Positions 11,938-25,853 of a DNA stretch of 64,000 nucleotides are shown piece by piece. Made by a program: the position numbers and the translations under genes. Location of the stretch: the NCBI RefSeq assembly GCF_026810505.1, contig NZ_CP101750.1, positions 2,757,254 to 2,821,253 of the forward strand, written 5' to 3'. The DNA is from Streptomyces sp. Je 1-369. Its GTDB lineage: Bacteria; Actinomycetota; Actinomycetes; Streptomycetales; Streptomycetaceae. The notes beneath the pieces are model-generated. The model made no database searches. It had not been told where the DNA came from and saw only the letters and a program-made list of their open reading frames with translations. Within the stretch, counting starts at the first letter, position 1; each line of letters opens with the position of its first letter.

Positions 11938-12122
11938 GCCGTACGTACGCCGCATCGGGGGAGGCAGCCGGGTGAACGTGATGTAGGGAACATCTAAGCC
12001 CCAGTGGATCTCTACGCCCCGCATGCGGCGTACGCTGTACAGCTGTCACCAAGGCCGCCCCTGCCGTTCTCCGCGACAACAGCGGCAACGCGCTGCCGAT
12101 CGGGGAGTAACGGGGAGTTACG

Positions 12123-12749
12123 GTGCTTGAAGTTGTGGGGGCGTTGACCGGCAGTCCGTGGATTTACGCGGTCGTGGCCCTGTCCGTCCTGTTCGACGTC
12201 TTCGTACCCGTCCTGCCGAGCGGGGTCATCGTCATCATGTCGGCGACCGCGGCCGCGGCGGCGGGGACAGGGGCGGCGGGGCAGGTCCCGCACGCCGTGC
12301 CCGACATCATGATGCTCACCCTCTGCGCGGCCACCGCGTCCGTGCTCGGCGACATGGTCGCCTTCCGGCTCGCCTGGCGCGGCGGCGAACGGCTCGACCG
12401 CGCGATCGCCCGTTCCCGGCGGCTGACCACCGCGCAGGAACGCCTCGGCACGGCGCTCGCGCGGGGCGGTGGCGTCCTGGTCGTCATCGCCCGCTTCGCA
12501 CCGGCCGGCCGATCGATCGTCTCCCTCGGCGCGGGCGCGGCCCACCGCAGGGTGCGCGAGTTCCTCCCGTGGTCCGTCCTGGCGGGCGTGGCCTGGGCCG
12601 GCTACAGCGTCGCCCTCGGCTACTTCGGCGCACAGTGGCTCGGCGCGACGTGGCTGGCGACGGGCGTCTCGCTGCTGGCGCTGTTCGCGGCGGGCGCGGG
12701 GGCGGCCTTCCTGGTACGCCGCCCGAAGCCGACGACGACACCCGGCTGA
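12123..12749 (+). CDS. DedA-family (SNARE-associated/VTT domain) membrane protein
   Basis: A 208-residue polytopic membrane protein. It carries the DedA signature around VVIARFAPAGRSIVSLGAG (the Arg-Phe-x-Pro-x-x-Arg motif) and an early re-entrant region FVPVLPSGVIVI. DedA proteins move or scramble undecaprenyl phosphate and other lipids and support membrane homeostasis; which lipid this member handles cannot be told. The start is a GTG with GGGAGTTAC upstream. The N-terminal half has an Ala-rich loop (~42-55). It converges on the DUF2277 gene. Confidence 0.88.
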   Translation: MLEVVGALTGSPWIYAVVALSVLFDVFVPVLPSGVIVIMSATAAAAAGTGAAGQVPHAVPDIMMLTLCAATASVLGDMVAFRLAWRGGERLDRAIARSRRLTTAQERLGTALARGGGVLVVIARFAPAGRSIVSLGAGAAHRRVREFLPWSVLAGVAWAGYSVALGYFGAQWLGATWLATGVSLLALFAAGAGAAFLVRRPKPTTTPG

Positions 12750-12832
12750 CGGACCACCGAAAGCCGGCCAGGGCGGCGTTTCAGCGCTGCCCGCCACCGG
12801 CTCGCGGCGCTCGGCGCTACGGCGCTACGGCG

Positions 12833-13078
12833 CTACGACACCCTCGCCGCAGTCGACGCAGTCGCCGCAGTCCCTCGTACCTCCAAGCCCGCCAGCAGCT
12901 CCGCCGTCGCCTTCGTGACCGCGTCCACCGCGTGGTCGAACACCTCGCGGTTGTGGGCGGCGGGCGCGCGGAAGCCGGAGACCTTGCGGACGTACTGGAG
13001 CGCGGCCGCGCGGATCTCCTCCTCGGTGGCGTCCTCGGGGATCGCGGGCGGGCGGAGCGTCTTGATGCTTCGGCACAT
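12833..13078 (-). CDS. DUF2277 family protein
   Basis: An 81-residue cytosolic protein beginning MCRSIKTLRPP, the conserved DUF2277 start. It continues ATEEEIRAAALQYVRKVSGF and ends in a helix HAVDAVTKATAELLAGL. These small proteins are widespread in bacteria and their function is not known. The ATG is placed by a GGAG 4 nt before it and by family length; longer upstream frames are not supported. The last ten codons fall in a short CGCAGTCG-type repeat, so the C-terminal tail is variable. Confidence 0.85.
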   Translation of the reverse strand: MCRSIKTLRPPAIPEDATEEEIRAAALQYVRKVSGFRAPAAHNREVFDHAVDAVTKATAELLAGLEVRGTAATASTAARVS

Positions 13079-13183
13079 GTCTCCAGCTTGCCACCGCGGC
13101 TCGTTCCCGTACCCGGAGAAGTCGGCTCGATCGTTCGCACGCTTCACTCGCACACGTAATTCGAACAGGAGTACCATTACGGT

Positions 13184-13540
13184 GTGCCTGCCACCCCAGC
13201 CCCCCATGACTTCCCGAGCGACCTCCTCGCCGGCCAGGAGGAACTGCACCAGGTCCGCTCCGTGCTCCTGGCGCTGCTCAAACGTCTGCCCTGGTCGGTG
13301 GAGCCCCACGACGGGTTCAGCGACTCCACCGGCTGGCGCAGAACGGAACGCCCCGCGTCCCCCGGATGGACCCCGGAAGAGCAGGCCGAGGTGGAGGAAC
13401 TACGCGCCAAGGAGCGGGAGTTGTCGGTCTTCGTGACGTGCCACGAGTACTGGGAACAGGTCACGGGACCGGACAACGTCGCCGCGCGCGCCGCACTCAA
13501 GCACGCCCACGAGAAGCCGGACGACTCCCTCTCCTCCTAG
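13184..13540 (+). CDS. Conserved actinomycete hypothetical protein
   Basis: A 118-residue soluble protein, likely all-helical. Recognisable stretches are EELHQVRSVLLALLKRLPWS (residues ~19-38), a central WTPEEQAEVEELRAKERELS helix, and CHEYWEQV near residue 87. It resembles a family of small proteins conserved in Streptomyces without assigned function. GTG start with AGGAG about 10 nt upstream. It is divergent from the DUF2277 gene and followed after 81 bp by another small gene. Confidence 0.72.
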   Translation: MPATPAPHDFPSDLLAGQEELHQVRSVLLALLKRLPWSVEPHDGFSDSTGWRRTERPASPGWTPEEQAEVEELRAKERELSVFVTCHEYWEQVTGPDNVAARAALKHAHEKPDDSLSS

Positions 13541-13621
13541 GCATTGACAGCCGCAGGAGGCGGGCGTTGACTCGCTATCAGCCACGCACGAGAGCCCCCT
13601 TCGAGCCACGGAGGTGCAGCC

Positions 13622-13930
13622 TTGAACGTCCTGATAGTCGTCGCGATCCTGGCCCTCTTCGGCCTGGGCTTCAGCCAGCCACTGCTCTGGCTCGCCGCGG
13701 CGGCACTCGCCTTCTACCTGGTGCGCTTCTACGAGGGCGGCTCCGCGTCCAAGAAGAGCAGTCCGGGCAGCGGCGCCGCGAACAGCAGCGGAGGCATGGG
13801 CGCAGGCGGCGGCAGCTCAGGTGGCGGTGGCGGCTACCCGAAGACGTACCGCGACTACCGCATCCGCAAGGAGCGCCAGGAACGCTGGGACCGCAGGTAC
13901 CGCAGAACGCACCCGGGATCCGGCCGCTGA
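13622..13930 (+). CDS. Small membrane protein with Gly/Ser-rich linker
   Basis: A 102-residue protein made of two adjoining hydrophobic segments (residues ~2-38), a flexible Gly/Ser linker (~45-75), and a very basic C-terminal helix RIRKERQERWDRRYRRTH. The basic tail could bind lipid head groups or nucleic acid. The TTG start has GGAGGTG 7 nt upstream, which is a strong ribosome site and supports this choice. No family assignment is possible. Confidence 0.7.
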   Translation: MNVLIVVAILALFGLGFSQPLLWLAAAALAFYLVRFYEGGSASKKSSPGSGAANSSGGMGAGGGSSGGGGGYPKTYRDYRIRKERQERWDRRYRRTHPGSGR

Positions 13931-14002
13931 CCCGCCCCTGACCCCGTAACGCAGCCGCCCACACACCCACAATGCGGCCGCCACGCGGCCGCCACGGGAC
14001 AG

Positions 14003-14038
14003 GCGAAGGCCCCCGCCGAGATCGGCGGGGGCCTTCGC
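14003..14038. terminator. Bidirectional intrinsic-type terminator
   Basis: GCGAAGGCCCCCGCCGA pairs with TCGGCGGGGGCCTTCGC, a perfect stem of about 17 bp. It sits between two convergent genes and can serve both. Confidence 0.9.
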
Positions 14039-14084
14039 ACCGGCACCGCAGCAGCGTTGCCCTGCCCTCGGGGGGCAGACCACG

Positions 14085-14975
14085 TCAGTGGCGCGGGCCC
14101 TGCTTCCGGTCACGCCAGCCCTCGCCCTTCGCGCCGCGCTCGCCCTTGGCGCGGTCGTACTCGATCTGCTCCTTGCGCACCGTGTCCGAGACCTCTTCCG
14201 TCTCGGTGACCTTCTCGGTCTCCAGCCGCACGCGCTCGACCGGCACGGACTCCTTGCGGACGACCGCCTTCTCGGCGTGCAGGGTCACCTCGGCCTCGGC
14301 CTCGCCGATGTTCGCGCGCGTGCCGTCGCCCTCGCGGATGGGCTCGCGGACGACGCGGACCTCCTCGTGCGAGAGCGGCACGGACGTCTTCACGTCCTCC
14401 GTGACGACGACCTTGCGCAGCCGGGCCTGCCCGACCACTTCCTCCTCCGTGCCGACCCGCAGCCGCTCCTCGGAGCGGATCATCTCGTCGGACCTGGTGT
14501 CGTCACGTCCCATGGAGCGGCTCGCGGCACCCGCTCCGGCCATACCGGCGCCCGCGCCCGCACCGGCCATGCCCTCACGGTCGCGCATGCCCTCACGGCC
14601 GCGCATACCGGCAGCCGGCGCGCCACCGGCCGCACCGCGAGTGGTCGCCTCGGGCCGGGTCAGCCCGTAATGGGCGTAGAGCTCGTGCTCCTCGCCCGGC
14701 TCGATGTGCTGGTCGGCGTCGATCCGGGGGGCGTCCTTCACTGCTTCCTTGGTCGTCGCCACGTGCAGCTGGTCGTCCTGGCGACGGGCTCCGGCGAGCG
14801 GGACGAAGCTCTGCTTCATGCCGAAGAGTCCGGTCTTGACGGTGACCCACTCGGGGCGGCCGCTGCGGTCGTCGAGATAGACCTGCTCGACGCTGCCGAT
14901 CTTCTCGCCGGTCCGGTCGTAGGCCGTCAGACCCGTGAGCCCGTCGGGGTTGGTGAAGCCTTCGCCCTGCGTCAT
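14085..14975 (-). CDS. PRC-barrel and DUF2382 domain stress protein
   Basis: A 296-residue hydrophilic protein. Residues ~1-90 form a PRC-barrel (GLTAYDRTGEKIGSVEQVYLDDRSG, then VPLAGA). A low-complexity linker with RGREGMRDREGM and MAGAGAGAG repeats follows (~118-150). Residues ~160-285 are a DUF2382 (YsnF/AvaK-like) domain: RSEERLRVGTEEEVVGQARL, then VPLSHEEVRVVREPI. The charged, repetitive C-terminus is typical of stress-induced YsnF-like proteins. It is a cytosolic protein probably under general-stress control; no promoter proof was found. The Met-Gly repeats vary between strains in such genes. Confidence 0.9.
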   Translation of the reverse strand: MTQGEGFTNPDGLTGLTAYDRTGEKIGSVEQVYLDDRSGRPEWVTVKTGLFGMKQSFVPLAGARRQDDQLHVATTKEAVKDAPRIDADQHIEPGEEHELYAHYGLTRPEATTRGAAGGAPAAGMRGREGMRDREGMAGAGAGAGMAGAGAASRSMGRDDTRSDEMIRSEERLRVGTEEEVVGQARLRKVVVTEDVKTSVPLSHEEVRVVREPIREGDGTRANIGEAEAEVTLHAEKAVVRKESVPVERVRLETEKVTETEEVSDTVRKEQIEYDRAKGERGAKGEGWRDRKQGPRH

Positions 14976-15250
14976 GGGTGATCACTCCCTCGGAGCGCGC
15001 GACGGGCGATGTCGTTACTCGCCACGGCAGACGCACGCTTCCCCTCCATCGCGCGCCGCGTCGCGGCACACCGCAACCAGGAAAGTGACGGAACGTACGC
15101 GGAGTGCGCTCCGAAGGCCCTTCAGCGGCGCGCCTGAGGCGATCCACCGGATCTGGCGCCTCACCAACCGATTAGCCCATTCGAGCTACCCGCTTGATCG
15201 ATCTTCCGGAACTCTCCCGGAACCGTTCCGGAGCTCTCCCGACCGATCGC

Positions 15251-15288
15251 AGCGGAGCCCCTCACCATGACTGGTGAGGGGCTCCGCT
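15251..15288 (-). terminator. Hairpin at the left element boundary; likely the original tRNA-Val terminator
   Basis: AGCGGAGCCCCTCACCA pairs perfectly with TGGTGAGGGGCTCCGCT. It lies 9 bp outside the left att repeat, just where a terminator of the tRNA-Val gene would be before the element inserted. Confidence 0.8.
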
Positions 15289-15297
15289 GTCTGTTCA

Positions 15298-15340
15298 ACC
15301 CGGTGGGCGCGGACGGTTTCGAACCGCCGACATCCTCCTT
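15298..15340 (-). repeat. Left attachment site, duplicate of the tRNA-Val 3' half
   Basis: 43 bp identical to 23026-23068. On the minus strand it starts AAGGAGGATGTCGGCGG, ends in GCGCCCACCGGGT, and covers the tRNA from the anticodon-loop 3' edge through the discriminator base. Identity stops sharply on both sides. This is the hallmark of tyrosine-integrase insertion in a tRNA. Confidence 0.93.
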
Positions 15341-15692
15341 CTCGATCGGGAGCCGCAGGTAGTCCGGGTGCTTCGTGATGTTCGTTGCGGTGCCAGGAGA
15401 TGAGCGGCCGGGTTGATACTGATCCACTTCCCCAGGGTGACCTTGCCGCGCTCGGGGCCGCGGCACTGCCATTCGCGTACGGCCGTGCGGGTCTTGTCGA
15501 GGGATGCTTCGGCCGCGGCCTTGCCGCCGTCCTCGGGAAGTTCTTCGACTTCTGCTTTCCTGTCGGATCGCGGAAACGTGCCTGTCACGAACCGATGCAG
15601 TCGCGCCGCGGTCGGCGGTCGCCGTGCTCGTCGGCTGAATACTCCTCAATGCACCGCTTGCAACCGCAGCTCTTGCTGGGGATCTGCCGTGG
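15341..15692 (-). pseudogene. Tyrosine integrase remnant (N-terminal arm-binding region)
   Basis: On the minus strand one frame reads SCGCKRCIEEYSADEHG then RRPRRDCIGS, hits TGA where Trp is expected, and goes on QARFRDPTGKQKSKNFPR. The sequence then continues one frame away as EASLDKTRTAVREWQ and RGPERGKVTLGKWI. This order, GS(W)QARFRDPxGKQ, then LDKTRTAVRE, then RGKVTLGKWI, is the N-terminal arm-binding part of Streptomyces phage/AICE integrases. The whole catalytic domain with the R-H-R-Y residues is absent; the copy stops at the att site. At least one nonsense change, one frameshift and a large deletion are therefore needed. Confidence 0.8.
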
Positions 15693-15912
15693 GTTGTTCA
15701 GCGCCCTACGCGCGCCATGCTTGATCGCCTGCCCGCTCCTTCGCTGGGTGGGTACGCGGGGCAGCACCGAGACGGGCGTGTGCGTAGCTGAGGGAGCCCG
15801 AAAGGACGATGACGCCCTTGGAGGCATCGAAGGGTGCTGGCTCACCCTGAGGCGAAAATCGAATGCGGACGCACACAGGAAACCACCGGTTCGACCATGG
15901 GCTCGTGTGGCA

Positions 15913-16275
15913 ATGCGGAAATCGCATCATCGGGGGGCCGTCGCAGAAAAGGCACCGCAGAGAAAGCGTCGTATACGTTGCTTAGCGATCTACTCAGCCG
16001 TCGCCCTGACCGCGGGGATCGCAATTCTGGGGCTGGCGCTATGGGCCGCCCCATCTGAGACCACGACTGCCCCGATGCCCCCCTCCACTCCGCCCGCGCC
16101 TACCGCCCCGGCTTACTCCGGGTCGCACGGTCGCCGACGCACGGTGATGACCCAGGCCCAACGCAGCCCACCAGCACGGCCGGGACCGCCCCCACGCCAG
16201 CGCCCACCACCGCATCCCCATCTGCCTCCAGGCCCCAACCCGGCGCCTCAGCTTCACCCACACCGCCAAGCATGA
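15913..16275 (+). CDS. Possible small membrane protein, perhaps frameshifted with the next gene
   Basis: A 120-residue reading frame with a basic N-terminus, one hydrophobic helix (CLAIYSAVALTAGIAILGLA, residues ~30-50) and a Pro/Thr-rich tail. The tail changes character near residue 75 from PPAPTAP to Arg/His-rich sequence. The alternate frame from there reads GPTQPTSTAGTAPTPAP and runs directly into the next gene. A single frameshift at about 16110-16145 would thus join both into one two-helix protein with an S/T/P-rich linker. The stop overlaps the next ATG as ATGA. It could instead be two coupled genes. Confidence 0.45.
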   Translation: MRKSHHRGAVAEKAPQRKRRIRCLAIYSAVALTAGIAILGLALWAAPSETTTAPMPPSTPPAPTAPAYSGSHGRRRTVMTQAQRSPPARPGPPPRQRPPPHPHLPPGPNPAPQLHPHRQA

Positions 16276-16496
16276 GCGGGGACGCGACTGGCACCCCGGA
16301 GGTACTCGCAGCCGTGACAGGGTTGATCTCCGCGCTTGGAGGTCTGTGCGGCGCCATCACCAGCGTGATCATGCTTGTGCGGACGCCTCGCCCCCCTCCG
16401 GCGCCTGATGACTCCGTGCCGCCCCCGCATCCGAGTAATGCGGTGCCGCGCCAGCATGATCGAAAAGGATCGTTTTCTGTGGAGCTTTGTAATTAA
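16272..16496 (+). CDS. Small single-pass membrane protein of the element
   Basis: A 74-residue protein with one transmembrane segment, VLAAVTGLISALGGLCGAITSV at about residues 11-33, and a Pro-rich tail (RPPPAPDDSVPPPHP). It begins ATGAGC overlapping the stop of the upstream frame. No family recognised. In-frame sequence upstream is S/T/P-rich and uninterrupted for over 40 codons, so the gene may be the 3' half of a longer, frameshifted gene. Confidence 0.5.
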   Translation: MSGDATGTPEVLAAVTGLISALGGLCGAITSVIMLVRTPRPPPAPDDSVPPPHPSNAVPRQHDRKGSFSVELCN

Positions 16497-16620
16497 CTGT
16501 CAAGCGGGTACGATTTAGCTAAATCAGCGCCACGCGAGACCGCGGCACAGAAGGGACTCGACCCCAGGGGCCTCACCCCCCAGAATCGAGCCCTCCGTTC
16601 AAATTTCTCACACGCGCCAC

Positions 16621-16716
16621 TTACCGCAGATACGTCCCCACGCACGCGGTGATCGACACGAACAGTCCGAGCACTTCGATGATCAACATCCCGCTAGGGT
16701 GCCACGGTCGTTTCAT
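16621..16716 (-). CDS. 31-residue hydrophobic peptide with a perfect Shine-Dalgarno sequence
   Basis: The translation is MKRPWHPSGMLIIEVLGLFV then SITACVGTYLR: a basic start, one transmembrane helix, and an Arg end. AAGGAGGTGA, fully complementary to the 16S anti-SD, lies a few bases before the ATG. This is far stronger than most sites here and argues for real, efficient translation. Size, single helix and charged ends resemble type I toxin or membrane-stress peptides, but no antisense RNA or partner is proven. It lies in the AT-rich part of the element with a long non-coding leader. Confidence 0.65.
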   Translation of the reverse strand: MKRPWHPSGMLIIEVLGLFVSITACVGTYLR

Positions 16717-17181
16717 TCGTCACCTCCTTCCCGTTTGCATGATCGACCGCACCGAGGCCTATCATCAAATCCTCAACAATGCGGCAAGTTCGATTGGATA
16801 GGACATTCGCAAGCTTACGCGAATAACAATCCGCCATTGGTGAGCGAGATGAGCCCGAGGCGAATGGGAAATAAGAATTAGGTAAGCAGTGGCAGTTGGG
16901 GAATGCCTCGGGCATATCGCTTTTATCAACAGTCGCTCGCTTAACAGGCGCCTCAGTATCGTGACCCCTGGGCTGATATCCCCCGAGTGCTCACCCCACG
17001 GTCGTCGCGCATTCGCCCGAGGCCGCAGCCTCTGCCGTTGTCACCCCGGCCGGCCCTAAGCGTCGTTGCACTCAGCGTCGCAGGCGCGTGAGGGAGATCT
17101 GGCACTGCCCGGGTGTGCGGCTCCGTCCCGTGCACAGGGAACTAGCAGCGAGACCTCCGCGCGTGAGGGAAATGGGAAGAC
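16717..17181. other. AT-rich non-coding region of the element
   Basis: About 465 bp, notably lower in GC than the rest of the window, with stops in all frames and no credible coding pattern. It holds the leader of the 31-codon ORF and an ATTCGC/GCGAAT inverted repeat (about 16804-16823). It could carry an element-specific promoter, origin or small RNA; nothing more can be claimed. Confidence 0.5.
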
Positions 17182-17574
17182 ATGGGAGACGTTGACCACG
17201 CAGCCGCCGACCGGCTCTGGCAACACGGACTGCACGAGGACAACGTCCGCTACCAGCAGGGCAACCTCTTCCTCGTCGCGCAGTCCTTACTGGCGGTGGC
17301 CTACAGCACGATCCTGACTGCGGGCAACGGAACCCAGCCCGCCCGGGTGATCGCGGCGTTCGGCGTCGCGCTCACGGTCATCTGGGTATATGTCGGGAAC
17401 CGCCACCGCATGTACGCTGCCGCCCTCCAATGCCGCATCAAGAGCGCGGTTCCTGACTATGCAGAAACGACCGCTGCTTGTGCACCCCGAGGCATTGGCA
17501 CCACTGCCATGCTCGTCTATGTACTGCCGTCACTCGCCGCCACCATGTGGCTGGTACTACTCGTGATCTCTTGA
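17182..17574 (+). CDS. Small polytopic membrane protein
   Basis: A 130-residue protein with a polar N-terminus (ADRLWQHGLHEDNVRYQQGN), then hydrophobic segments at about 29-47, 55-73 and 107-128. The W-x-H-G-x-x-E-D-N start followed by a helix LFLVAQSLLAVAYSTIL recalls short membrane proteins (RipA-like/SLATT-like) that often accompany mobile elements and defence loci, though similarity is only general. ATG with GGGAAG upstream. Convergent with another membrane protein across a terminator. Confidence 0.65.
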   Translation: MGDVDHAAADRLWQHGLHEDNVRYQQGNLFLVAQSLLAVAYSTILTAGNGTQPARVIAAFGVALTVIWVYVGNRHRMYAAALQCRIKSAVPDYAETTAACAPRGIGTTAMLVYVLPSLAATMWLVLLVIS

Positions 17575-17713
17575 TCGGTCCCTTGACTGACGCCACTTAT
17601 CCGATGAGAGACAGTCGAGCCAAGCCGCTTCACTGTCTACAGAGAGCCGGGATTGCATTCTCGCCGATCATCCTCCACACAGAGCCCGCAGATCCGGCAC
17701 GCCCGGAAACAAC

Positions 17714-17734
17714 AGGCCCGCCCCGTGCGGGCCT
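17714..17734. terminator. Short terminator hairpin between convergent genes
   Basis: AGGCCCGC pairs with GCGGGCCT around CCCGT, followed by TTC. It serves the upstream plus-strand gene and lies 9 bp from the end of the minus-strand gene. Confidence 0.75.
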
Positions 17735-17742
17735 TCGTCACC

Positions 17743-18267
17743 TCACTGGTCTGGCCTCGCTGACAACTCCTGCTCCAGCCGCTCCAACCGCCGCACCTCG
17801 CGTACTCGTGCGTCTAGCGGCTGCAGCGGAGCCCGGAGTAGACGGATCATGGGGGGAGTGGCCATCCCGTACATGCCGACGATAAGGGTGATCAAGCAGT
17901 AGATGGCCTGGCCCGTAGCGGGCTCGTGTTCTGGCTTAGCGAGCCAACCAAGCGACAAACTCTCAGCTACGACGAGCGCGAACACAAGAATGATCCAAGT
18001 AATCGCCTTGAAGTAGGTGCGCATCGACCTGGTGGTCCGTTGGCTTGCCTCGAGTGTCAGGGCTTCAAGTCGAGCCCGTGCTGCGCCCACTTGCTCTCTC
18101 GTTGGCTGTGCCGGAAGGGATTCCAGTACGGAGCGACACTCCTCCGAGGTGGCAGCCAAAGAGGCACCGAGAGCTTTGCGGTTCTGGTCCACCTCCACGA
18201 CACCCACGAGCAAAATCACTGGGGCGACCGCAGCCACCGTCGCGGCGAATGTCTCCGTCATGTGCAT
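17743..18267 (-). CDS. Three-helix membrane protein with periplasmic or cytosolic coiled segment
   Basis: A 174-residue protein. The first helix is VAAVAPVILLVGVVEV (about 11-27). A charged helical segment of ~65 residues follows (LAATSEECRSVLESLPAQP and ARARLEALTLEASQ). Two further helices are ITWIILVFALVVAESLSL and IYCLITLIVGMYG. A basic Arg/Leu/Glu helix closes the protein. ATG start with GGGGAAG at about 9 nt. It has no recognised family. The arrangement is of the sensor or holin-accessory type, but no evidence decides this. Confidence 0.65.
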   Translation of the reverse strand: MHMTETFAATVAAVAPVILLVGVVEVDQNRKALGASLAATSEECRSVLESLPAQPTREQVGAARARLEALTLEASQRTTRSMRTYFKAITWIILVFALVVAESLSLGWLAKPEHEPATGQAIYCLITLIVGMYGMATPPMIRLLRAPLQPLDARVREVRRLERLEQELSARPDQ

Positions 18268-18355
18268 AGAGCGAGACTTCCCCGCTTCGTCAAAACCAGC
18301 CCACCGGTAGACCGGCCCGCCCCCCCCTGTGAGTGGTCGGGCCTTCGGCGGGCTC

Positions 18356-18676
18356 ATGACGCGCGGACAGATCCGGGCCGCGGAACGCCGCTGGCGCCGC
18401 AGCGACATCTTCGCCGTCCTCGGCGCGGTCGTGCTGGGTGTTGCTGTCGCCTGGATCGTCTTAACGGTTCAGGCGATGGCGGACGACCTGCGCACGGCGA
18501 ATCAGGCGCGTGACCAGCTGGGGCGGCAGGTCGAGCAGATGGGGGGCACGCCGGTCGCTGGGCCACCCGGGTCTCGTGGGGAACCCGGCGAGTCGCGGCC
18601 CGGTCCTCAAGGAACGCAGAACAGCCCCTTCGGGCGGGAGGGGGCCTTTCGTCGTGCCCTCGGCTTGCCCAACTAG
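18356..18676 (+). CDS. Single-pass membrane protein with collagen-like tail
   Basis: A 106-residue protein with a basic N-terminus, a helix IFAVLGAVVLGVAVAWIVL (about 18-37), a short coiled segment MADDLRTANQARDQLGRQVE, and a Gly-Pro-rich stretch GPPGSRGEPGESRPGPQG with collagen-like G-x-x periodicity. Such proteins occur in actinomycete prophages and plasmids as structural or spacer proteins. A GTG 27 bases upstream is an alternative start. It ends 9 bp before the HAD gene, so the two are probably cotranscribed. Confidence 0.6.
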   Translation: MTRGQIRAAERRWRRSDIFAVLGAVVLGVAVAWIVLTVQAMADDLRTANQARDQLGRQVEQMGGTPVAGPPGSRGEPGESRPGPQGTQNSPFGREGAFRRALGLPN

Positions 18677-18685
18677 GGTCGCCGC

Positions 18686-19327
18686 ATGATCCGTACCATC
18701 GCATTCGACGTAGGCGAAACCCTCGTCCGTGACGACCGCTACTGGGCATCGTGGGCCGACTGGCTCCGCGTACCGCGCCACACCGTGTCAGCACTCGTCG
18801 GCGCCGTGGTCGCCCAAGGAAAGGACAACGCCGAGGCGCTCCGCCTCCTCCGCCCCACCATCGACATCGCCTCGGCGTATCAGGCCCGAGAGGAAGCGGG
18901 GCGGGGCGAATACCTCGACGAGACGGACGTGTACGAGGACGTCCGCCCCGCCCTCGCAGCGCTGCGCGACCAAGGCGCCCGCGTCATCATCGCGGGCAAC
19001 CAGACCGTGCGCGCCGGTGAGCTGCTGCGTGGCCTCGACCTGCCCGCCGACCTGATCGCGACGTCCGGGGAGTGGGGTGTCGCCAAGCCCGCTCCCGCGT
19101 TCTTCGAGCGGCTCGTCACAGAGGCTGGCGTCCCAGCGGCAGAGGTTCTCTACGTGGGGGACCACCCGCAGAACGACACGCTGCCCGCGCATACGGCCGG
19201 ACTGCGCACGGCGCACCTCCGGCGCGGCCCGTGGGGGCATCTGTGGGCGGATGACCCGCGGGTGATCGAGGCGGCGGACTACCGAGTCGACTCGCTCACA
19301 GATCTCACGGCAGCGCTCACGCGCTGA
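18686..19327 (+). CDS. HAD-like hydrolase with altered motif I
   Basis: A 213-residue HAD-fold protein. Motif I reads AFDVGETLVRDD: the nucleophile Asp is present, but the usual second Asp (DxD) is Gly, as in dehalogenase-like or non-phosphatase HADs. Motif II falls at VIIAGNQT, motif III Lys is in GVAKPAPAFF, and motif IV is VLYVGDHPQNDTLPA. The cap is small. The Asp-to-Gly change makes ordinary phosphatase activity doubtful. Such HADs are common next to XRE regulators in Streptomyces accessory regions. Substrate unknown. Confidence 0.85.
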   Translation: MIRTIAFDVGETLVRDDRYWASWADWLRVPRHTVSALVGAVVAQGKDNAEALRLLRPTIDIASAYQAREEAGRGEYLDETDVYEDVRPALAALRDQGARVIIAGNQTVRAGELLRGLDLPADLIATSGEWGVAKPAPAFFERLVTEAGVPAAEVLYVGDHPQNDTLPAHTAGLRTAHLRRGPWGHLWADDPRVIEAADYRVDSLTDLTAALTR

Positions 19328-19337
19328 TCAGCGAACA

Positions 19338-19374
19338 GAACGGCCCCACCTGCGAATGGCAGGCGGGGCCGTTC
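19338..19374 (+). terminator. Terminator after the HAD-like gene
   Basis: GAACGGCCCC pairs with GGGGCCGTTC, extended inward by CCTGC/GCAGG. It separates the HAD gene from the XRE regulator. Confidence 0.85.
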
Positions 19375-19435
19375 GCGCACCAGCGCGTTACCGCGCGGGT
19401 ACGGTTCGAAGTGGACGCCTCGAACTGGAGCCAGT

Positions 19436-20608
19436 ATGCCCGCATTTGGTGATCATGTGGGGCGGCGGATCGCCACCACCCGTAAGACGAAGCACATGCG
19501 GCAAATCGATCTGGCCCGTAAGGCGTTCCTGTCCCTGGCCACGATCAAAGGGATCGAGCGGGGCGCGCGTCATCCGAGTGACTCCGCTCTCGAAGCGATC
19601 GCTGCGGCGCTCGGCGTCGACCCGACTCGGCTCTTGGCCTCCTTCACCGGTACCGAGCGCCGCGTGCATGGCGCCCTGCCGGGGATCTCGGCGAGTATCG
19701 CTGGCTACGACGTCCCCCTTGATCCGCCCCGTCGCAGCCTCGACGAGTTGCACACCGCAGCAAGCGACGCCGTCACCTGGCGGCTCGGCGCCCAATACGG
19801 CCAGATCGCGCAGCACGCCCCGGCTCTCCTAAGTGACGCGCTCGCCGCCTTCCACACCGCACCGGACCGGCGGGCCGCGGCCCGACTCGTGGTCGGCGCC
19901 GCCCGCTCCGCCGATGCGGTCGCATACAAGTACGGCGCCCGCGACCTCTCGGCGCGCCTCATCGACCTGATGCGGTGGGCCGCCCCTCATACCGAAGACC
20001 CGCTCCTGACCGCGTCGGTGGCGTACGTACGAACCGAGATCTTCTTCATCGCGCGCGCCCATGAAGCAGGCGTCAAAGCCCTGGAAGCGGCCGTCGACGC
20101 AGCACCTGCCCCGACCGACCCTGAGGCCTCGGCAGCACGGGGCACCCTGCACATGCGAGCCGCCGTCATCGCTGGCAGGGCCGGAGACGCAGACGCTGCG
20201 GATGAACACCTGCGAGAAGCACGTCAACTGAGCGAGGACGTACCGGAAGGCACGTACCTGGGGACAGCATTCGGGCCGGAATCGGTACGGGTGCATGAGG
20301 TGTCGGTGGCCGTGAGCCTTGGCAGCGACCACATCCACCGCGCCTTCTCCATCGCCCGGGAGTGGGCTCCGTCCGATGATCTGCCGGCCGAACGACGCTC
20401 GGGATTCTGGATCGAGTTGGCGCGCGCCCAACTCTGGGGCAACAGGTTCGACGACGCCTTTGAGTCTCTGAAGGTGGCCCGGCTTATCGCTCCCCAGCAC
20501 ACGCGCGAGCACCCGTGGGCCCGCGACACAGCGGCTACCCTGCGTCGGCTGAAACGGGCGGACGCAGAGTCACTCGACAACTTCGTGGGGTGGCTCGGCG
20601 CCACCTGA
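19436..20608 (+). CDS. XRE-family regulator with C-terminal helical repeats
   Basis: A 390-residue protein. Residues ~5-62 are a lambda-repressor-type helix-turn-helix: MRQIDLARKAFLSLATIKGI, then ERGARHPSDSALEAIAAALG. The remaining ~300 residues are helical repeats of the TPR kind (AARGTLHMRAAVIAGRAGDADAAD region), as in large Streptomyces XRE regulators that sense peptides or small ligands. The ATG has GGAG upstream. The gene is flanked by a terminator upstream and a run of small genes downstream, including a DUF397-like protein, the frequent partner of XRE regulators in Streptomyces. It is the likely master regulator of the element cargo. Confidence 0.88.
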   Translation: MPAFGDHVGRRIATTRKTKHMRQIDLARKAFLSLATIKGIERGARHPSDSALEAIAAALGVDPTRLLASFTGTERRVHGALPGISASIAGYDVPLDPPRRSLDELHTAASDAVTWRLGAQYGQIAQHAPALLSDALAAFHTAPDRRAAARLVVGAARSADAVAYKYGARDLSARLIDLMRWAAPHTEDPLLTASVAYVRTEIFFIARAHEAGVKALEAAVDAAPAPTDPEASAARGTLHMRAAVIAGRAGDADAADEHLREARQLSEDVPEGTYLGTAFGPESVRVHEVSVAVSLGSDHIHRAFSIAREWAPSDDLPAERRSGFWIELARAQLWGNRFDDAFESLKVARLIAPQHTREHPWARDTAATLRRLKRADAESLDNFVGWLGAT

Positions 20609-20699
20609 CAAGCAGTTTCGGGGATACAAGGTGTAGCCCTTACCGCCTCTTCCAACGCTCATGATCTGTGCATCGACGCCGACAGGTCAGGGGTCCACG

Positions 20700-20918
20700 A
20701 TGACTGATACGACTGTCGAGGAGACACTCCTCGGATCCGTGGTGCAGGTGAGCATCGCACGCCTGCACGGGTTGGTGTGCTGGGACTGTGGCGCAGTCAC
20801 GCGCACCCTCGTCGAGTGCGGGTCCGTGCGTGACGAGCACGGCCAGGTGCGGCCCAAGAAGACGTGTGGGTGCGCTGCGGGCTCCTCGGGCCCGACGCTT
20901 CCTGCGGCGGTGTCCTGA
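20700..20918 (+). CDS. Small Cys-rich protein
   Basis: A 72-residue protein. Cysteines occur as CWDCG (residues ~29-33), one Cys in LVECGS, and KKTCGC near the end, a spacing that could build a zinc site. The ATG chosen begins MTDTTVEETLL; a longer frame exists but lacks a ribosome site. It ends in a TGATG overlap with the next gene, so the two are translationally coupled. No known family; a small zinc-ribbon is the best description. Confidence 0.6.
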   Translation: MTDTTVEETLLGSVVQVSIARLHGLVCWDCGAVTRTLVECGSVRDEHGQVRPKKTCGCAAGSSGPTLPAAVS

Positions 20919-21388
20919 TGACCACACCAAGAGGTGTCCCGGCGGCCATCGACTGGCTCGCCTGCGCTCAGGCAGAGCCGCACCAGGCCCATCAGGAACG
21001 GGCGGCGGGCGGAGCCGCGCTGTTGCCCCTTGGCCGACGGTTCAGCGCGGTGTGCCTGTCTGGCCGAATCGTGTACGCGGCGGTCGGGACGACCGACCTC
21101 GACACGGTCACCGCGGCACTGGCCGAGCTCCACGGCCCTGTGATCCACAACAGCCTCCTGCACACGTACCACGCGCTCATCACCCCGTACCCGCCCGCCC
21201 GGTGGGCCTACGGCGAGATCGCGCCCATGCTCAGCAGTGGCCAGTTCCTCAGCGTGCCCGCCGCCGACCTCACCGGACCGACCGGCCTGCGCTGGGCAGT
21301 GCGACCACACAGTGCCGGCGTCCTGTGCTCCGTACCGGCCGTGGCCGCGCTCGTGGCCCTCAGCCTGCGGCCAGGGGGCTCCCGATGA
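20918..21388 (+). CDS. Conserved hypothetical protein of Streptomyces accessory regions
   Basis: A 156-residue soluble alpha/beta protein. It shows alternating strands (FSAVCLSGRIVYAAVG, HALITPYPPARWAYG) and an FLSVPAADLTGPTGLRW segment. The pattern of a Pro-rich Y-H-A-L-I-x-P strand followed by G-x-x-L-x-V-P recurs in small proteins located beside XRE regulators, but the family has no assigned function that I can name. Both ends overlap neighbours (TGATG at the start, ATGA at the end), so it sits inside one translational unit. Confidence 0.65.
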   Translation: MTTPRGVPAAIDWLACAQAEPHQAHQERAAGGAALLPLGRRFSAVCLSGRIVYAAVGTTDLDTVTAALAELHGPVIHNSLLHTYHALITPYPPARWAYGEIAPMLSSGQFLSVPAADLTGPTGLRWAVRPHSAGVLCSVPAVAALVALSLRPGGSR

Positions 21389-21903
21389 AGCTCACCGACC
21401 GCCTCGCGGCGCCTCTGCTGCCCTCACCAGGGCTCCTGTCCGACGGGCAAGTCCGCGGACAAGACTGCGTGTTCTGCGTAATCACCTTGACCGACGACGC
21501 CGTCGAACTCGGCCGCCAGGACGCAAAGTGCCTCGGCGCGGTCGTGAGCTGGTACCCCCGCGCCTGCCGCGACTGTGCAGCTGGCGGATACGTCGACCAC
21601 CTCCTCAGCGCGGCGTTCTCCGCCTGCCGGGACCTGCCGCCCCCGGAGCAGTTGCTCGACCTGTACCTCCGCCTGCGGCACGAGGTACGCCGACGCCTCC
21701 CGACCGTCGAGCAGGCTGCCGCCACCGCCGGTCAGGGCACGATGAGCTACCACGCACACCAGCGGATCGTGGATGCCGCCACCGACGTGCTACTCGACAC
21801 GGTGGGTGACGACAATCCCAGCCCCCTCGTGCTGGCCATGCGCTGCTCGGAGCTCGGCCGCCGCCTGCGCGACCTCATTCCCTACCAGCCATGTGCGCAG
21901 TGA
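21385..21903 (+). CDS. DUF6415-like hypothetical protein
   Basis: A 172-residue protein. The N-terminal half has Cys pairs (DCVFCVITL and YPRACRDCAAGGYVDHLL) that could bind zinc. The C-terminal half is a helical bundle, LLDLYLRLRHEVRRRLPTVE to SPLVLAMRCSELGRRLRDL, with a layout like DUF6415 proteins of Streptomyces. The start ATG overlaps the previous stop (ATGA) and its end overlaps the next gene by 13 nt. Function unknown; similarity to DUF6415 is by eye. Confidence 0.6.
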   Translation: MKLTDRLAAPLLPSPGLLSDGQVRGQDCVFCVITLTDDAVELGRQDAKCLGAVVSWYPRACRDCAAGGYVDHLLSAAFSACRDLPPPEQLLDLYLRLRHEVRRRLPTVEQAAATAGQGTMSYHAHQRIVDAATDVLLDTVGDDNPSPLVLAMRCSELGRRLRDLIPYQPCAQ

Positions 21904-22130
21904 GCGCGCGCGTTCGCGTCCCGTGCCCGCCCTGCTTGCGGGCGATGCTGCGGAAGGCGCCCGCCGAGCCGCACGACTGCCAGCTGACGACGGCAGTGGC
22001 CATTGAGGGGGCCCACCTTGTCGTCGGGCCCATCACGGACTGCCCGTGCCGGTGCCCGGTCGTGCAGGAGAGCGAGGCGCTGCAAACGGCGCGCGCTCAG
22101 GCCCGGCTCGCGTCAGGCCCGCAGGGCTGA
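21891..22130 (+). CDS. Small Cys-rich protein, second in the run
   Basis: A 79-residue protein with two cysteine clusters: VPCPPCLRAM (~10-19) and DCPCRCPVVQ (~50-59), plus HDCQ between. Seven cysteines in under 60 residues point to a metal-binding or disulfide-rich small protein. The ATG lies inside the end of the preceding gene. No family recognised. Confidence 0.55.
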   Translation: MCAVSARVRVPCPPCLRAMLRKAPAEPHDCQLTTAVAIEGAHLVVGPITDCPCRCPVVQESEALQTARAQARLASGPQG

Positions 22131-22210
22131 CCACCCCAGAACCTCCTGCCGCGCACGCGGCAGGTGACCCAGCCCTGGCCCGGCCAGGACCTACCCCAAG
22201 GAGACGCCCC

Positions 22211-22546
22211 ATGGGCACGCTCACCAACGGCAGGACCACGATCCCCTTCGACAACTGGTCTGCGCCCCACCTCGACTGGCGTAAGGCGGGCCGGACCGAC
22301 CTCGACCCGATCCTGAAGGACTGCGTGATCCTCGCCGCGGCCCCGGACGCCAAGGGCCATCCGCACCACAGCATCCCGGACGGGACGCGCATGGTCGCGA
22401 TCAGCGACGACAAGGACCAGGAGTCGCCAGTGCTGTACATGAGCCGACTCGAGATCAGTAAGTTCTTCGACGGGGTGATCGCGGGTGAGTTCGACGAGTT
22501 CCGGGCGAGCGAGAGCGAGCTCGAAGCAGCTGCCGCCACAACCTGA
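22211..22546 (+). CDS. DUF397-like protein
   Basis: A 111-residue protein. The core CVILAAAPDAKGHPHH, VAISDDKDQESPVLYMS and ISKFFDGVIAGEFDEF matches the order seen in DUF397 proteins: C-V-x-V-A, then R-D-S-K-D-P..PVL, then a helix ending FVAGVRAGEFD. DUF397 proteins are BldB relatives and commonly pair with XRE regulators in Streptomyces, where they act as an antitoxin-like partner (Scr1/Scr2 type). AAGGAG precedes the ATG. Its location in the run downstream of an XRE gene supports the call. The longer insert before SDDKD is unusual. Confidence 0.65.
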   Translation: MGTLTNGRTTIPFDNWSAPHLDWRKAGRTDLDPILKDCVILAAAPDAKGHPHHSIPDGTRMVAISDDKDQESPVLYMSRLEISKFFDGVIAGEFDEFRASESELEAAAATT

Positions 22547-22775
22547 CCCGGGCGGCGAGACGCCGCGCGACAACGGGCGCTCGCTGGCGAGCGGTCCGAT
22601 CTGTACGGAGCACGACGGGCCGCCGATGCGTACGATCCGCAGCTCGGCGGGGTCCAGCATCTGCCCTGTCTGTACACCCCTCGGTGCGACGCCGGCGCAG
22701 ACGGCCTTGATCGTGCATAGGCAGAACGCGATTCTCGACGGCCCGTACTGGCGTGCGGGCGGACGGGCCACCTGA
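22485..22775 (+). CDS. Possible small zinc-binding protein
   Basis: A 96-residue frame. The last two thirds look protein-like, with GPICTEHDGPPMRTIRSS and SSICPVCTPLG giving C-x2-H and C-x2-C pairs, then a helix. The first ~25 codons overlap the DUF397-like gene in another frame and may not be translated. The GTG used is the first possible start; a later ATG would cut off the first Cys/His pair. Uncertain gene with plausible metal-site spacing. Confidence 0.4.
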   Translation: MSSTSSGRARASSKQLPPQPDPGGETPRDNGRSLASGPICTEHDGPPMRTIRSSAGSSICPVCTPLGATPAQTALIVHRQNAILDGPYWRAGGRAT

Positions 22776-22795
22776 CCCGCCATCCCTACCTGACC

Positions 22796-22833
22796 GCGGC
22801 CTCGGCCGGTTCCCCCGATCCGGCCGAGGCCGC
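22796..22833 (+). terminator. Terminator of the small-gene run
   Basis: GCGGCCTCGGCCGG pairs perfectly with CCGGCCGAGGCCGC (14 bp, 10-nt loop). It ends the plus-strand run that starts at the XRE gene. Confidence 0.85.
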
Positions 22834-22834
22834 T

Positions 22835-22921
22835 CTGCACGAGGTCGCGCAGCGGGATGTCGAGTGCATCGGCGATGACGAGTAGGTGATCGAGCAGCGT
22901 GGAGTGTGTGCCGCGTCTCAT
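22835..22921 (-). pseudogene. XRE regulator fragment
   Basis: On the minus strand the translation is MRRGTHSTLLDHLLVIADAL then DIPLRDLVQ. This is the end of a lambda-type helix-turn-helix domain (ERGxHSPxLDHLLxIADALDIPLxDLV). Only about 29 residues remain. The first helices and any C-terminal domain are missing, and a terminator hairpin follows immediately. It is a relic of a regulator at the right end of the element. Confidence 0.7.
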
Positions 22922-22964
22922 GATCGACGGGGGATGTGGACTCTTAGTGGACTCCGACCTCAAA

Positions 22965-22998
22965 AGGGCCCCCTAGCCGATCACGACTAGGGGGCCCT
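22965..22998 (-). terminator. tRNA-Val terminator supplied by the element
   Basis: AGGGCCCCCTAG pairs with CTAGGGGGCCCT (12 bp). On the minus strand it is followed by TTTTG, giving a U-tract 30-65 nt after the tRNA 3' end. It lies inside the element, so the element has replaced the original terminator (15251-15288). Confidence 0.88.
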
Positions 22999-23025
22999 AA
23001 AACAGGCTCTCACCTGCTACTTACT

Positions 23026-23068
23026 ACCCGGTGGGCGCGGACGGTTTCGAACCGCCGACATCCTCCTT
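23026..23068 (-). repeat. Right attachment site, 3' half of tRNA-Val
   Basis: 43 bp identical to 15298-15340. It overlaps the tRNA-Val gene from the anticodon-loop edge to 6 bp past the discriminator base, so insertion regenerated a full tRNA. Confidence 0.93.
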
Positions 23069-23103
23069 GTAAGGGAGGCGCTCTACCCCTGAGCTACGCG
23101 CCC
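23032..23103 (-). tRNA. tRNA-Val (anticodon UAC)
   Basis: A 72-nt cloverleaf with acceptor GGGCGCG/CGCGCCC, D arm GCTC-AGGGGTA-GAGC, anticodon stem CCTCC/GGAGG with loop CTTACAA (anticodon TAC), variable ATGTC, and T arm GGCGG-TTCGAAA-CCGTC. The discriminator is A and CCA is not encoded. It reads GUA valine codons, which are rare in this GC-rich genome. The 3' half is the att site. Confidence 0.97.
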
Positions 23104-23290
23104 GGGAACGAGTGGACAGCCTACCTTGCCGCAGGCAGTGCCCCGCAAACCCCTTTTGCGCCGCCCCGAGGGAAGGCGGCATGCGGGGGTTAACCCCACC
23201 CCGGATTCTGCGGCGGCCTGGATCCCCCCGTCGCGGGCTGTTCCGTAGAGTCTGCCGGAGAGAACAAGATCATTTCTGGGGGAGTCCGTC

Positions 23291-24175
23291 ATGACCGTCG
23301 TCCGCGTCGCCCGCGTCGTCCGCACCCACCGTCCACGCGCAGCCCGCGCCACCCGCGCCCTCGCCGCCGTCGGCGGAACCGTGGCCGTTGTCCTGCTCGT
23401 CGGCGCGTGCGGGGCGGATGCCGACGACGACACCGAGCCGGAGCACCGGACGTTCGCCCTGGCGGGGAAGACACTGACCGTCGAGGCGAGCGACACCTCG
23501 CTCGAACTGGTCCCGGCGGGCCGGGGCGCCAAGGGCGTGCGGGTGACCCGGTGGTTCGACGGGGAGACCATGCTCGGCGGCGACCCCAAGGTGACGTGGG
23601 AGATGGACGGGGACCGACTCAAGCTGGACATGTCGTGCTCCGGAGTCATCGCCAACTGCTCCGCCAAGCACCGCGTGGAGGTGCCCCGCGGAGTCGCCGT
23701 GAACGTCGAGAGCAAGGACGGCCGGGTCACGGCCGGCGGGTTCCGGGATGCGATGAAGGTGCGTACGTGGGACGGCTCCGTCACCGTCAAGGACGCCGGC
23801 GCCGCGCTCGACCTGCACAGCTCCGATGGTTCGATCACCGTCGACGGAGCCGAGGGCGACCTCGACCTGCGCAGTTCCGATGGGGCCATCACCGCGCGGG
23901 ACGTGACATCCCGGCGCGTGGGCGTCGACGCCAAGGACGGGTCCGTACGACTTGAGCTGGCCTCCGTGCCCGACCGTGTCGAGACGCGGAGCAAGGACGG
24001 GTCCGTCGACATCGCGGTGCCGGGCTCGAAGGACGGCGAGCGCGTCCGGTACGACGTGCGGACCGAGACCTCCGACAGCGCCGTCGACGTGTCGGTGCCC
24101 AAGGACGACAGCAGCCCCCACCACGTCTCCGTCCACAGCACCGACGGCAAAGTCACCGTGCGCAGCGCGAACTAA
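23291..24175 (+). CDS. DUF4097-like beta-repeat lipoprotein
   Basis: A 294-residue exported lipoprotein. Basic start, hydrophobic core (GGTVAVVLLVGAC), and lipobox VGAC with Cys ~40. The mature part is a repeating beta helix with recurrent S-x-D-G-S units: VESKDGRVTAGG, VRTWDGSVTVKD, LHSSDGSITVDG, LRSSDGAITARD. This is the DUF4097 (adhesin-like) fold, with about eight turns. It is likely anchored on the outer face of the membrane; a partner or signal is unknown. ATG preceded by GGGGGAG. Confidence 0.88.
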   Translation: MTVVRVARVVRTHRPRAARATRALAAVGGTVAVVLLVGACGADADDDTEPEHRTFALAGKTLTVEASDTSLELVPAGRGAKGVRVTRWFDGETMLGGDPKVTWEMDGDRLKLDMSCSGVIANCSAKHRVEVPRGVAVNVESKDGRVTAGGFRDAMKVRTWDGSVTVKDAGAALDLHSSDGSITVDGAEGDLDLRSSDGAITARDVTSRRVGVDAKDGSVRLELASVPDRVETRSKDGSVDIAVPGSKDGERVRYDVRTETSDSAVDVSVPKDDSSPHHVSVHSTDGKVTVRSAN

Positions 24176-24252
24176 CAGGCCCGTGTATTCGTCCTTAACC
24201 GGTGGGAGAATGTGACACCGGGCAGGGCGGATGACAGCACGGGAGAGGGACA

Positions 24253-25752
24253 GTGACGGCGACACCTTCGCAGCCGTGCACACCGGGCAGTAGAGCAGGA
24301 GTGGGGAGCGCGACCGAGACGGCAGACGCGGGATCCGAGGCGGCAACCGGGCCAGCTGGGGCGGCCAGGGCGGGTGTGGTCCCTGTGGCTTTCCGGTCTT
24401 CCCGCGTGCGCGTACGCCGCGGGCACCTGCGTGGCACCCTCGCCCTGGTCACCGCCGTCACCGTCTCCCTGCCACTGCTCGCCCTCGCCGTCCCGGCCGC
24501 CTTCGCGGGCGGCGGCACCCGGCGCTGGTTCGGCGGGCGCGGCGAGAGCCAGCGTGCCGAGGCGCAGGCCGCGAAGGACGCCGCCGCCGCGGCCTTCTAC
24601 GAACTGGACACCGCCCAGCGCGACCTCCGCATCTCCATCGAGACGATCGTCGCCGTCGACTCCTCGCCCGCGGCCCGGCGCGCCGTCTCCGACTTCGAGG
24701 CGATCGGGCACCGCATCGACGAGGTCAGCCGCCAGTACATCAGCGCGGTGGACGCCCACGACCTGGACCGGGACGACCTGGAGTCCTCCGTCGCGGCCCG
24801 CGCGAGGACCGAGCTCACCGCCGCGAAGACGGAGCTCGGCAAGGCCAAGCAGGACCTGGAGCGCTTCCAGCAGGGCCTCGGGCCGCTGCTCGACAAGGCC
24901 GAGACCCAGCTCGCCCGGCTCGCCCCCGCGGTGGAGCGGGCCCGCCAGACCCTGCTCGCCGCGAGCAACGCCCTCGACTCCGTGCGGGCGGCCGGCCTCA
25001 AGGCCGACGACCTCGCCGCCCGCCTCGCGGCCCTCGGCCCCGAACTGACCAAGCTCAACCAGGGCGCGGGCCGCCACGGCGTGCCGGAGACGCTGCAGCG
25101 CGCCGACCGCGTCCTGCGCGACGCCGAAGCCGTGCGCGCCGAGGCCGAGCGGCTCCCCGAGCGGGCCGCCGAGATCGACCGGCGCCTGGTCTCGCTGCGC
25201 ACCCGCGCACAGGCCCTGACGACCCGTACGGGCCAGGTCGACCCGGTCCTCAGCGAACTGCGGCGCCGGTTCGCCGCCGCGTGCTGGCAGGACCTGCAGC
25301 ACGTCCCCGACCAGGCCGCGGAGAACGTGCGCCAGGCCGAGTCCAAGCTGAAGGAGGCCCAGCAGGCGCGCGACGAGCAGCGCTGGCCCGACGCCACCTC
25401 GCGGCTCTCCACGGTCCGGGCGCTCCTGAACACCACGGACGAGGCGGTCTCCGCGGCCGGCGACCGCCTCCAGCGGCTCAACGCGGTGTCGAAGGACCCG
25501 CAGCAGGAGATCGAGCGCACCCGCTTCGCGATCCGGGACGCGCAGCGCCTGGCGATGGCGGGCCGGCAGACGCCCGAGCAGCGCCACGCCCGCCCGCTCG
25601 ACGAGTCCGTGGCCCGCCTGGACCGCGCGGTGGCGTCCCTGGAGGGCCGCCACCCCGACTACTGGCACTTCCTGACCGAGACCGAGGGGGTCCGCACGAC
25701 CGTGGCCCGCGTGGTCGCGCAGATACGGGAGGAGCGGGGGCAGGGCGCCTGA
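24253..25752 (+). CDS. Membrane-anchored coiled-coil protein
   Basis: A 499-residue protein with a disordered, Ala-rich cytosolic start (~1-55), one transmembrane helix (TLALVTAVTVSLPLLALAVP, ~62-85), and an extended, heptad-rich extracytoplasmic region (~100-490). That region is rich in Ala, Arg, Glu and Leu with almost no Gly or Pro. The helix series (EAQAAKDAAAAAF, RTELTAAKTELGKAKQDLER, VRAEAERLPERAAEIDRRL) indicates a long antiparallel coiled coil. No enzyme motif. Actinomycetes have similar proteins of unknown role in envelope organisation. GTG start with GGGAGAGGGA upstream. Confidence 0.8.
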   Translation: MTATPSQPCTPGSRAGVGSATETADAGSEAATGPAGAARAGVVPVAFRSSRVRVRRGHLRGTLALVTAVTVSLPLLALAVPAAFAGGGTRRWFGGRGESQRAEAQAAKDAAAAAFYELDTAQRDLRISIETIVAVDSSPAARRAVSDFEAIGHRIDEVSRQYISAVDAHDLDRDDLESSVAARARTELTAAKTELGKAKQDLERFQQGLGPLLDKAETQLARLAPAVERARQTLLAASNALDSVRAAGLKADDLAARLAALGPELTKLNQGAGRHGVPETLQRADRVLRDAEAVRAEAERLPERAAEIDRRLVSLRTRAQALTTRTGQVDPVLSELRRRFAAACWQDLQHVPDQAAENVRQAESKLKEAQQARDEQRWPDATSRLSTVRALLNTTDEAVSAAGDRLQRLNAVSKDPQQEIERTRFAIRDAQRLAMAGRQTPEQRHARPLDESVARLDRAVASLEGRHPDYWHFLTETEGVRTTVARVVAQIREERGQGA

Positions 25753-25853
25753 CGGCCCCGCCCCGAGGGCCGCGTGCGTACGTGCCCGCCCCCCTACTGG
25801 AAGGCGCGCCACCCGGATCCGTCCGGCTGAAACGGCTGTGCGAATGTGGGGAG

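Follow-up and report, generated by a model that had tools for sequence, protein, structure and literature searches.

A probable remnant of a VWB-type temperate phage in a tRNA-Val(UAC) gene of Streptomyces sp. Je 1-369

Introduction

In Streptomyces, tRNA-Val(UAC) is documented as a site for both phages and actinomycete integrative and conjugative elements (AICEs). The temperate phage VWB (NC_005345) runs from attP through int, on the minus strand, to the early and structural genes, followed by a HAD family hydrolase gene, an XRE-type regulator gene, and the end of the genome. PMC13346255 gives 46 bp in common between VWB attP and a tRNA gene, and has a VWB-based vector entering tRNA-Arg in Saccharopolyspora erythraea, unlike the tRNA-Val used by the element described here. 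Decayed AICEs (DAICEs), as presented in PMC9513070, carry cargo, an incomplete integrase, and a pair of direct repeats. Actinobacterial prophages are often incomplete: 47% (984/2106) are classed as remnants in PMC10023795. We analyze a 7.8-kb element in a 64-kb window (the whole stretch of DNA studied, to which all positions refer) of the Streptomyces sp. Je 1-369 chromosome. We conclude, with a probability of roughly 0.93, that it is what a temperate phage has left behind in tRNA-Val(UAC), a phage of the type of VWB and of a prophage in the Streptomyces genome G278. Such prophage remnants are common, and as a kind the element is ordinary.

An insertion bounded by a tRNA repeat

The element is enclosed by an exact 43-bp direct repeat of the tRNA 3′ part (15298-15340 and 23026-23068), the longest repeat family reported for 12000-27000; at a spacing of 7.7 kb, we take such a repeat to be beyond chance. 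The right copy lies within an intact tRNA-Val gene (anticodon tac), the sole Rfam match in 12000-27000, where no other known RNA element was found. Outside the repeat the copies diverge at once, the left one into CTCGATC and the right one into the anticodon GTA (23069-23071). The repeat, its place in an intact tRNA gene, and the abrupt divergence had all been claimed by an original prediction made from the sequence alone, and all three hold. In the host genome, a single 8.82-Mb contig, a 78-base att-tRNA query is found full-length once and its first 43 bases recur at 15298 alone; a third match, elsewhere, is partial (query bases 18-73) and 77% identical.

The original prediction had also asked for an empty tRNA-Val site in relatives, and such sites exist. 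The two flanks of the element, joined and used as a query, matched 295/295 genus genomes at E <= 0.001, the matches listed being mostly the tRNA and right flank alone. Nine loci, a non-random choice made mainly among the better matches, were compared. Five align well across the junction, with identities of 92% (L100/G271 and L101/G187), 84% (L112/G108), 78% (L107/G244), and 77% (L113/G313); in the remaining four, the alignment begins within or beside the repeat itself. Left-flank genes lie close to a single tRNA copy in G117 and G240, and in G105 the left-flank homologue (window 11944-15189, 85%) starts 67 bp from the tRNA. At E <= 1e-8, no left-flank match was found in G111, and likewise none past the join in G313.

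Two hairpins bear on the history of the site. The stretch 15235-15301 folds at -44.4 kcal/mol (z -5.85), and its hairpin, just outside attL, is homologous to the sequence directly downstream of tRNA-Val in the empty sites of G271 and G187; we therefore read it as the original tRNA terminator. The stretch 22955-23029 (-41.6 kcal/mol, z -5.79) holds a terminator-like hairpin that is currently downstream of the tRNA. Either a phage or another host could have been the source of this second hairpin, since a similar one (91% over 22967-23107) stands in G117, where the 16 kb fetched shows no further att copy.

A broken integrase and a shortened attL

At the left end, a phage integrase gene survives as a broken fragment that ends 5 bp from the att copy. 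It has an in-frame stop, a frameshift, and an internal deletion, and its last ~226 residues are gone. Measured against the 430-aa integrase of the G278 prophage, it keeps approximately residues 2-99 plus residues 176-204, the latter placed through a DNA alignment (74% over 88 nt), with nothing beyond; since the catalytic Pfam domain of the G278 protein spans residues 219-404, that domain has been lost entirely. By tblastn, 15713-15424 matches the integrases of G278 (75-77% aa, in two frames), mu1/6 (65%), VWB (55-60%), and OnionKnight (43-55%). At the DNA level, 15493-15761 resembles the start of the OnionKnight integrase and the next gene (71.5%), and parts of it resemble the integrases of SF3 (74.6%) and mu1/6 (72%). 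The gene directly upstream of int in OnionKnight is gp31, and a broken gp31 homologue is also present here. The original prediction had described a reduced element in which replication, transfer, and excision genes were not seen: the reduced content stands, but for excision it had overlooked the broken integrase gene.

The left att copy is itself damaged. We compared it with eight fully readable second copies elsewhere (one in G278, two at L098, three at L099, and one each at L108 and L109). Identity runs through the anticodon in 8/8 of them (TTGTAA in seven, TTGCAA in one), unlike attL in the window, which halts exactly before the anticodon. When tyrosine recombinases act at tRNA genes, the crossover is often close to the anticodon loop, so the crossover site of attL has probably been lost. 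A broken integrase and a shortened attL are two reasons to regard the element as probably immobile.

A phage-type right arm

The right part of the element holds further phage-type genes in phage order: a collagen-like gene, HAD, XRE, and small right-arm genes (Table 1). The collagen-like reading frame (18329-18676) matches the tail fiber family phrog_18350 at E 9.2e-9, and its OnionKnight homologue, gp25, comes after the holins in that phage. The C-terminal part of the XRE-type regulator has weak TPR matches. Near attR, two GTGGACTC motifs are putative integrase arm sites; the motif occurs 4 times, counting both strands, in the 64-kb window, and 22919-23110 is 78% identical to the right end of the G278 prophage, motif pair included. 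A viral-contig search with the DUF397-like protein returned one relative. On the 56.9-kb viral contig L139, an amidase gene is followed by an XRE gene (34% aa), a homologue of the 20942 gene (41%), and a DUF397-like gene (84%), with no HAD match on the contig. For the HAD and XRE genes, dN/dS is 0.21/0.67 and 0.36/1.36 against VWB, and 0.20/0.99 and 0.29/1.28 against G009, values that characterize these gene families rather than what has happened to the remnant after it decayed.

Table 1. Positions and supporting evidence of the features at the tRNA-Val(UAC) locus.
Feature	Position	Strand	Basis
Original tRNA-Val terminator hairpin, stranded outside attL	15250..15289	-	folding; homology to empty sites
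attL, left copy of tRNA-Val 3′ part, ends at anticodon	15298..15340	.	repeat; second-copy comparison
Integrase pseudogene, VWB / mu1/6 / G278 type	15346..15718	-	tblastn, blastn
OnionKnight gp31 homologue, broken, two pieces in two frames	15711..15876	-	alignment to OnionKnight
Small membrane protein (by reading)	17182..17574	+	PF24838 8xMP, below cut-off; up to 82% identity to relatives
Membrane protein (by reading), no family	17743..18264	-	sequence reading
Collagen-like phage protein, truncated	18356..18676	+	OnionKnight gp25, 61% aa; phrog_18350 tail fiber
HAD family hydrolase	18686..19327	+	phage VWB gp55, 75% aa
XRE-type regulator	19436..20608	+	VWB gp56, 60% aa; phrog_5823, E 1.1e-72
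Small protein	20700..20918	+	20745-20873 matches script-called open reading frame after XRE in VWB, 52% aa
Right-arm protein	20942..21388	+	resident prophage, 86% aa; viral contig L139, 41% aa
DUF6415 protein	21385..21903	+	resident prophage, 98.6% aa over 144 residues
Small right-arm protein	21891..22130	+	resident prophage, 98% aa over 61 residues
DUF397-like protein, below Pfam cut-off	22211..22546	+	resident prophage, 97% aa; viral contig L139, 84% aa
Two GTGGACTC motifs, 11 bp apart, putative integrase arm sites	22936..22954	+	same pair and spacing at right end of G278 prophage
Terminator-like hairpin, currently downstream of tRNA, element side of attR	22965..22998	-	folding
attR, right copy, within intact tRNA	23026..23068	.	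repeat; ARAGORN
tRNA-Val(UAC), left intact by insertion	23030..23103	-	ARAGORN, Rfam

A complete-looking relative and a proposed history

A complete-looking relative occupies the same tRNA: the two tRNA-Val copies of G278 stand 44.6 kb apart, and between them is an apparently complete prophage (approximately G278:C1:3550129-3594813). PHROGs identifies its terminase, portal, major head, tape measure, and endolysin genes; a holin is seen only below the Pfam cut-off. This prophage has the closest integrase found, encoded on the minus strand beside attL with its frame intact, and its right-end sequence is similar; its right arm is unlike that of the element, and its small XRE protein matches the window XRE weakly (36%). 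The original prediction had proposed a search for complete relatives, and this one shares the site, with a different right arm. VWB is alike in integrase family, in having int by attP, and in placing HAD and then XRE near its right end; it differs as a complete phage, the element having nothing of what lies between the ends. More broadly, integrases of the G278 type were found at E <= 1e-60 in 14/295 genus genomes (42-100% identical). Within the 1.5-kb flanks examined, the tRNA-Val 3′ part lies ~200 bp past the integrase in three of the 14 (G278, G034, and G150) and is diverged in G114. G034 has a second tRNA-Val copy, with one mismatch, 40.8 kb off on the same contig; in G166, the related integrase and tRNA-Val are on separate contigs, and the two stretches fetched contain one core in total. 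When genome contigs were scanned with the G278 integrase, a single locus came up, L124 of Streptomyces indicus, with no tRNA-Val core in its retrieved DNA.

Because an integrase scrap, a phage right arm, and a similar prophage in the same tRNA come together, we read the element as the two ends of a G278-like prophage. A phage tyrosine integrase would have carried out recombination between attP and the tRNA-Val(UAC) 3′ part, and the phage would have brought a new 3′ part, so that the tRNA gene stayed intact; the insertion would have moved the original terminator 7.7 kb away. Later deletions, perhaps removing ~40 kb, would then have taken the genes for replication, packaging, virion structure, and lysis, the greater part of the integrase, and the side of attL that bore the anticodon, attL presumably having once been longer. 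What is left would be scraps from beside int at one end and, at the opposite end, the late right arm. The locus offers a clean case of how an element would become fixed once its integrase has lost the catalytic domain and one att core is gone.

Several observations weigh against this account. The ~2.4-kb middle, 15880-18330, has no phage homologue that we found: the open reading frames scanned there gave nothing above the Pfam cut-off, and viral contigs searched with the 17182-17574 protein gave no relative. A viral-contig search with the window XRE likewise gave no close relative. No phage among the complete ones examined matches both ends of the element, and 0/69 G278 prophage proteins match HAD or the cassette of DUF6415 and DUF397-like small genes. 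Phage right arms are modular. The HAD-XRE pair is also present outside phages, on plasmids, so on its own it is no proof of phage origin; G009 has it close to tRNA-Val, and the 20 kb fetched from that genome contains no further att copy. Finally, the G105 alignment extends only 44 bp to the left of the join.

Alternative explanations

The original prediction favored an AICE-like origin, and a decayed AICE would indeed suit the site. AICEs use the same tRNA: the first element in G030 has integrase, RepSA, FtsK-type, and GntR genes, and PMC9513070 describes AICEs in tRNA-Val with a 46-nt repeat, together with decayed AICEs that have partial integrases. Five G030 proteins were compared with the element (the integrase, RepSA, FtsK-type transfer, and GntR proteins assigned by Pfam, and an excisionase-like protein by reading), and 0/5 match it at E 0.01; no replication or FtsK/TraB-type transfer gene was recognized by Pfam among 20 open reading frames. 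The integrase, gp31, collagen-like, and right-arm genes are all of phage type, both ends match temperate phages, and the G278 prophage lies in the same tRNA. We therefore regard AICE ancestry as very improbable, and correct that reading to a prophage remnant; the DAICEs, for all their likeness, differ in a conjugative-element ancestry.

An intact prophage, by the criterion of PMC10023795 (an integrase together with one or more capsid, tail, or portal genes), does not describe the element, whose integrase is broken and which has a single truncated tail-fiber-like gene. It could instead be a satellite resembling the phage-inducible chromosomal islands (PICIs), dependent on the resident prophage described below: its size is under 15 kb, a class that the same paper assumes to include many satellites, and it shares a 1.3-kb block at 99-100% identity with that prophage. 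A satellite would have a working integrase, whereas here damage has reached the integrase as well as attL; a collagen-like tail-type gene cut short is the kind of trace that a deletion leaves; and no excisionase, primase, or packaging gene was recognized in the open reading frames scanned (20 in Pfam, 10 in PHROGs). We give this explanation hardly any credence. The prophage remnant, then, remains the preferred reading, and it recasts the insertion with unusual cargo of the original prediction: the tRNA-Val insertion is borne out, and the cargo is mostly a phage right arm, with the ~2.4-kb middle unexplained.

Possible exchange with a resident prophage

The genome itself carries an apparently complete 57-kb prophage (G000:C1:1152023-1209299), flanked by a 20-bp repeat, with integrase, terminase large subunit, portal, major head, tape measure, amidase, and holin families (PHROGs, Pfam). 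Window 20949-22891 recurs at 96% at its right end (L110:16569-18519 = G000:C1:1206569-1208519). By steps of 100 alignment columns, identity is 99-100% over 21173-22472, 75-87% in the two preceding steps, and 94-98% and then 80% in those that follow. This right-arm cassette is the likeness between the two; the resident prophage differs in its own att site (the 20-bp repeat, where an AAA/NUDIX gene begins) and in its full set of phage gene types. Between remnant and prophage, dN/dS is 0.075/0.220 for the 20942 gene; values for DUF6415 (0.006/0), the small gene (0.007/0), and the DUF397-like gene (0.012/0.054) rest on too few changes to interpret. The apparent sign of exchange is modestly interesting, and the near-identical block makes recombination between remnant and resident prophage testable. 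A bolder version, which we think unlikely, is that the remnant is under selection and swaps DNA with live phages, with the intact HAD-XRE pair and the cassette serving the host as an island of regulation or immunity; the 1.3-kb block would mark a recent recombination between the grounded remnant and an active prophage in one cell.

Side observations

The tRNA-Val(UAC) gene is an insertion hotspot. A 32-base piece, scanned with at most one mismatch through 101 genus genomes and counted by eye (a backward-read control gave none among the matches listed), is present in 78/101, and two or more copies share a contig in 20/101, the host genome included; neighboring copies in the multi-copy genomes are 1.6 to 63.5 kb apart. 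In G024 (L099:5022-16475), four tRNA-Val 3′ parts follow one another, separated by what we read as partial integrase genes, an array of tandem small elements.

In the middle region, the 17182-17574 protein has matches in 14/291 genomes and the 17743-18264 protein in 9/291, in both cases counting the host; the other eight relatives of the latter are 25-37% identical. In G150 and G203, that relative shares a contig with a related integrase (51% and 42% identical to that of G278), ~25 and 27 kb away, a weak hint that the middle genes are phage accessory genes.

The HAD-XRE pair (18686-20608) is found again in many genomes of the genus, as well as on plasmids and in phage VWB. The family searches made gave no specific function for the pair: NCBIfam returned matches of a general kind to HAD and helix-turn-helix families, plus one at chance level, with no equivalog above the cut-off. 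A defence island was considered and rejected: PADLOC, run on 8 proteins, matched XRE alone, through its helix-turn-helix part. In G009 (L094:12548-17993), the pair stands beside ATP-grasp-like and methyltransferase-like genes, by reading. In G105 (L095:7263-10456), relatives of the cassette and of the collagen-like gene adjoin tRNA-Asn and tRNA-Met genes, which suggests another remnant at a different tRNA.

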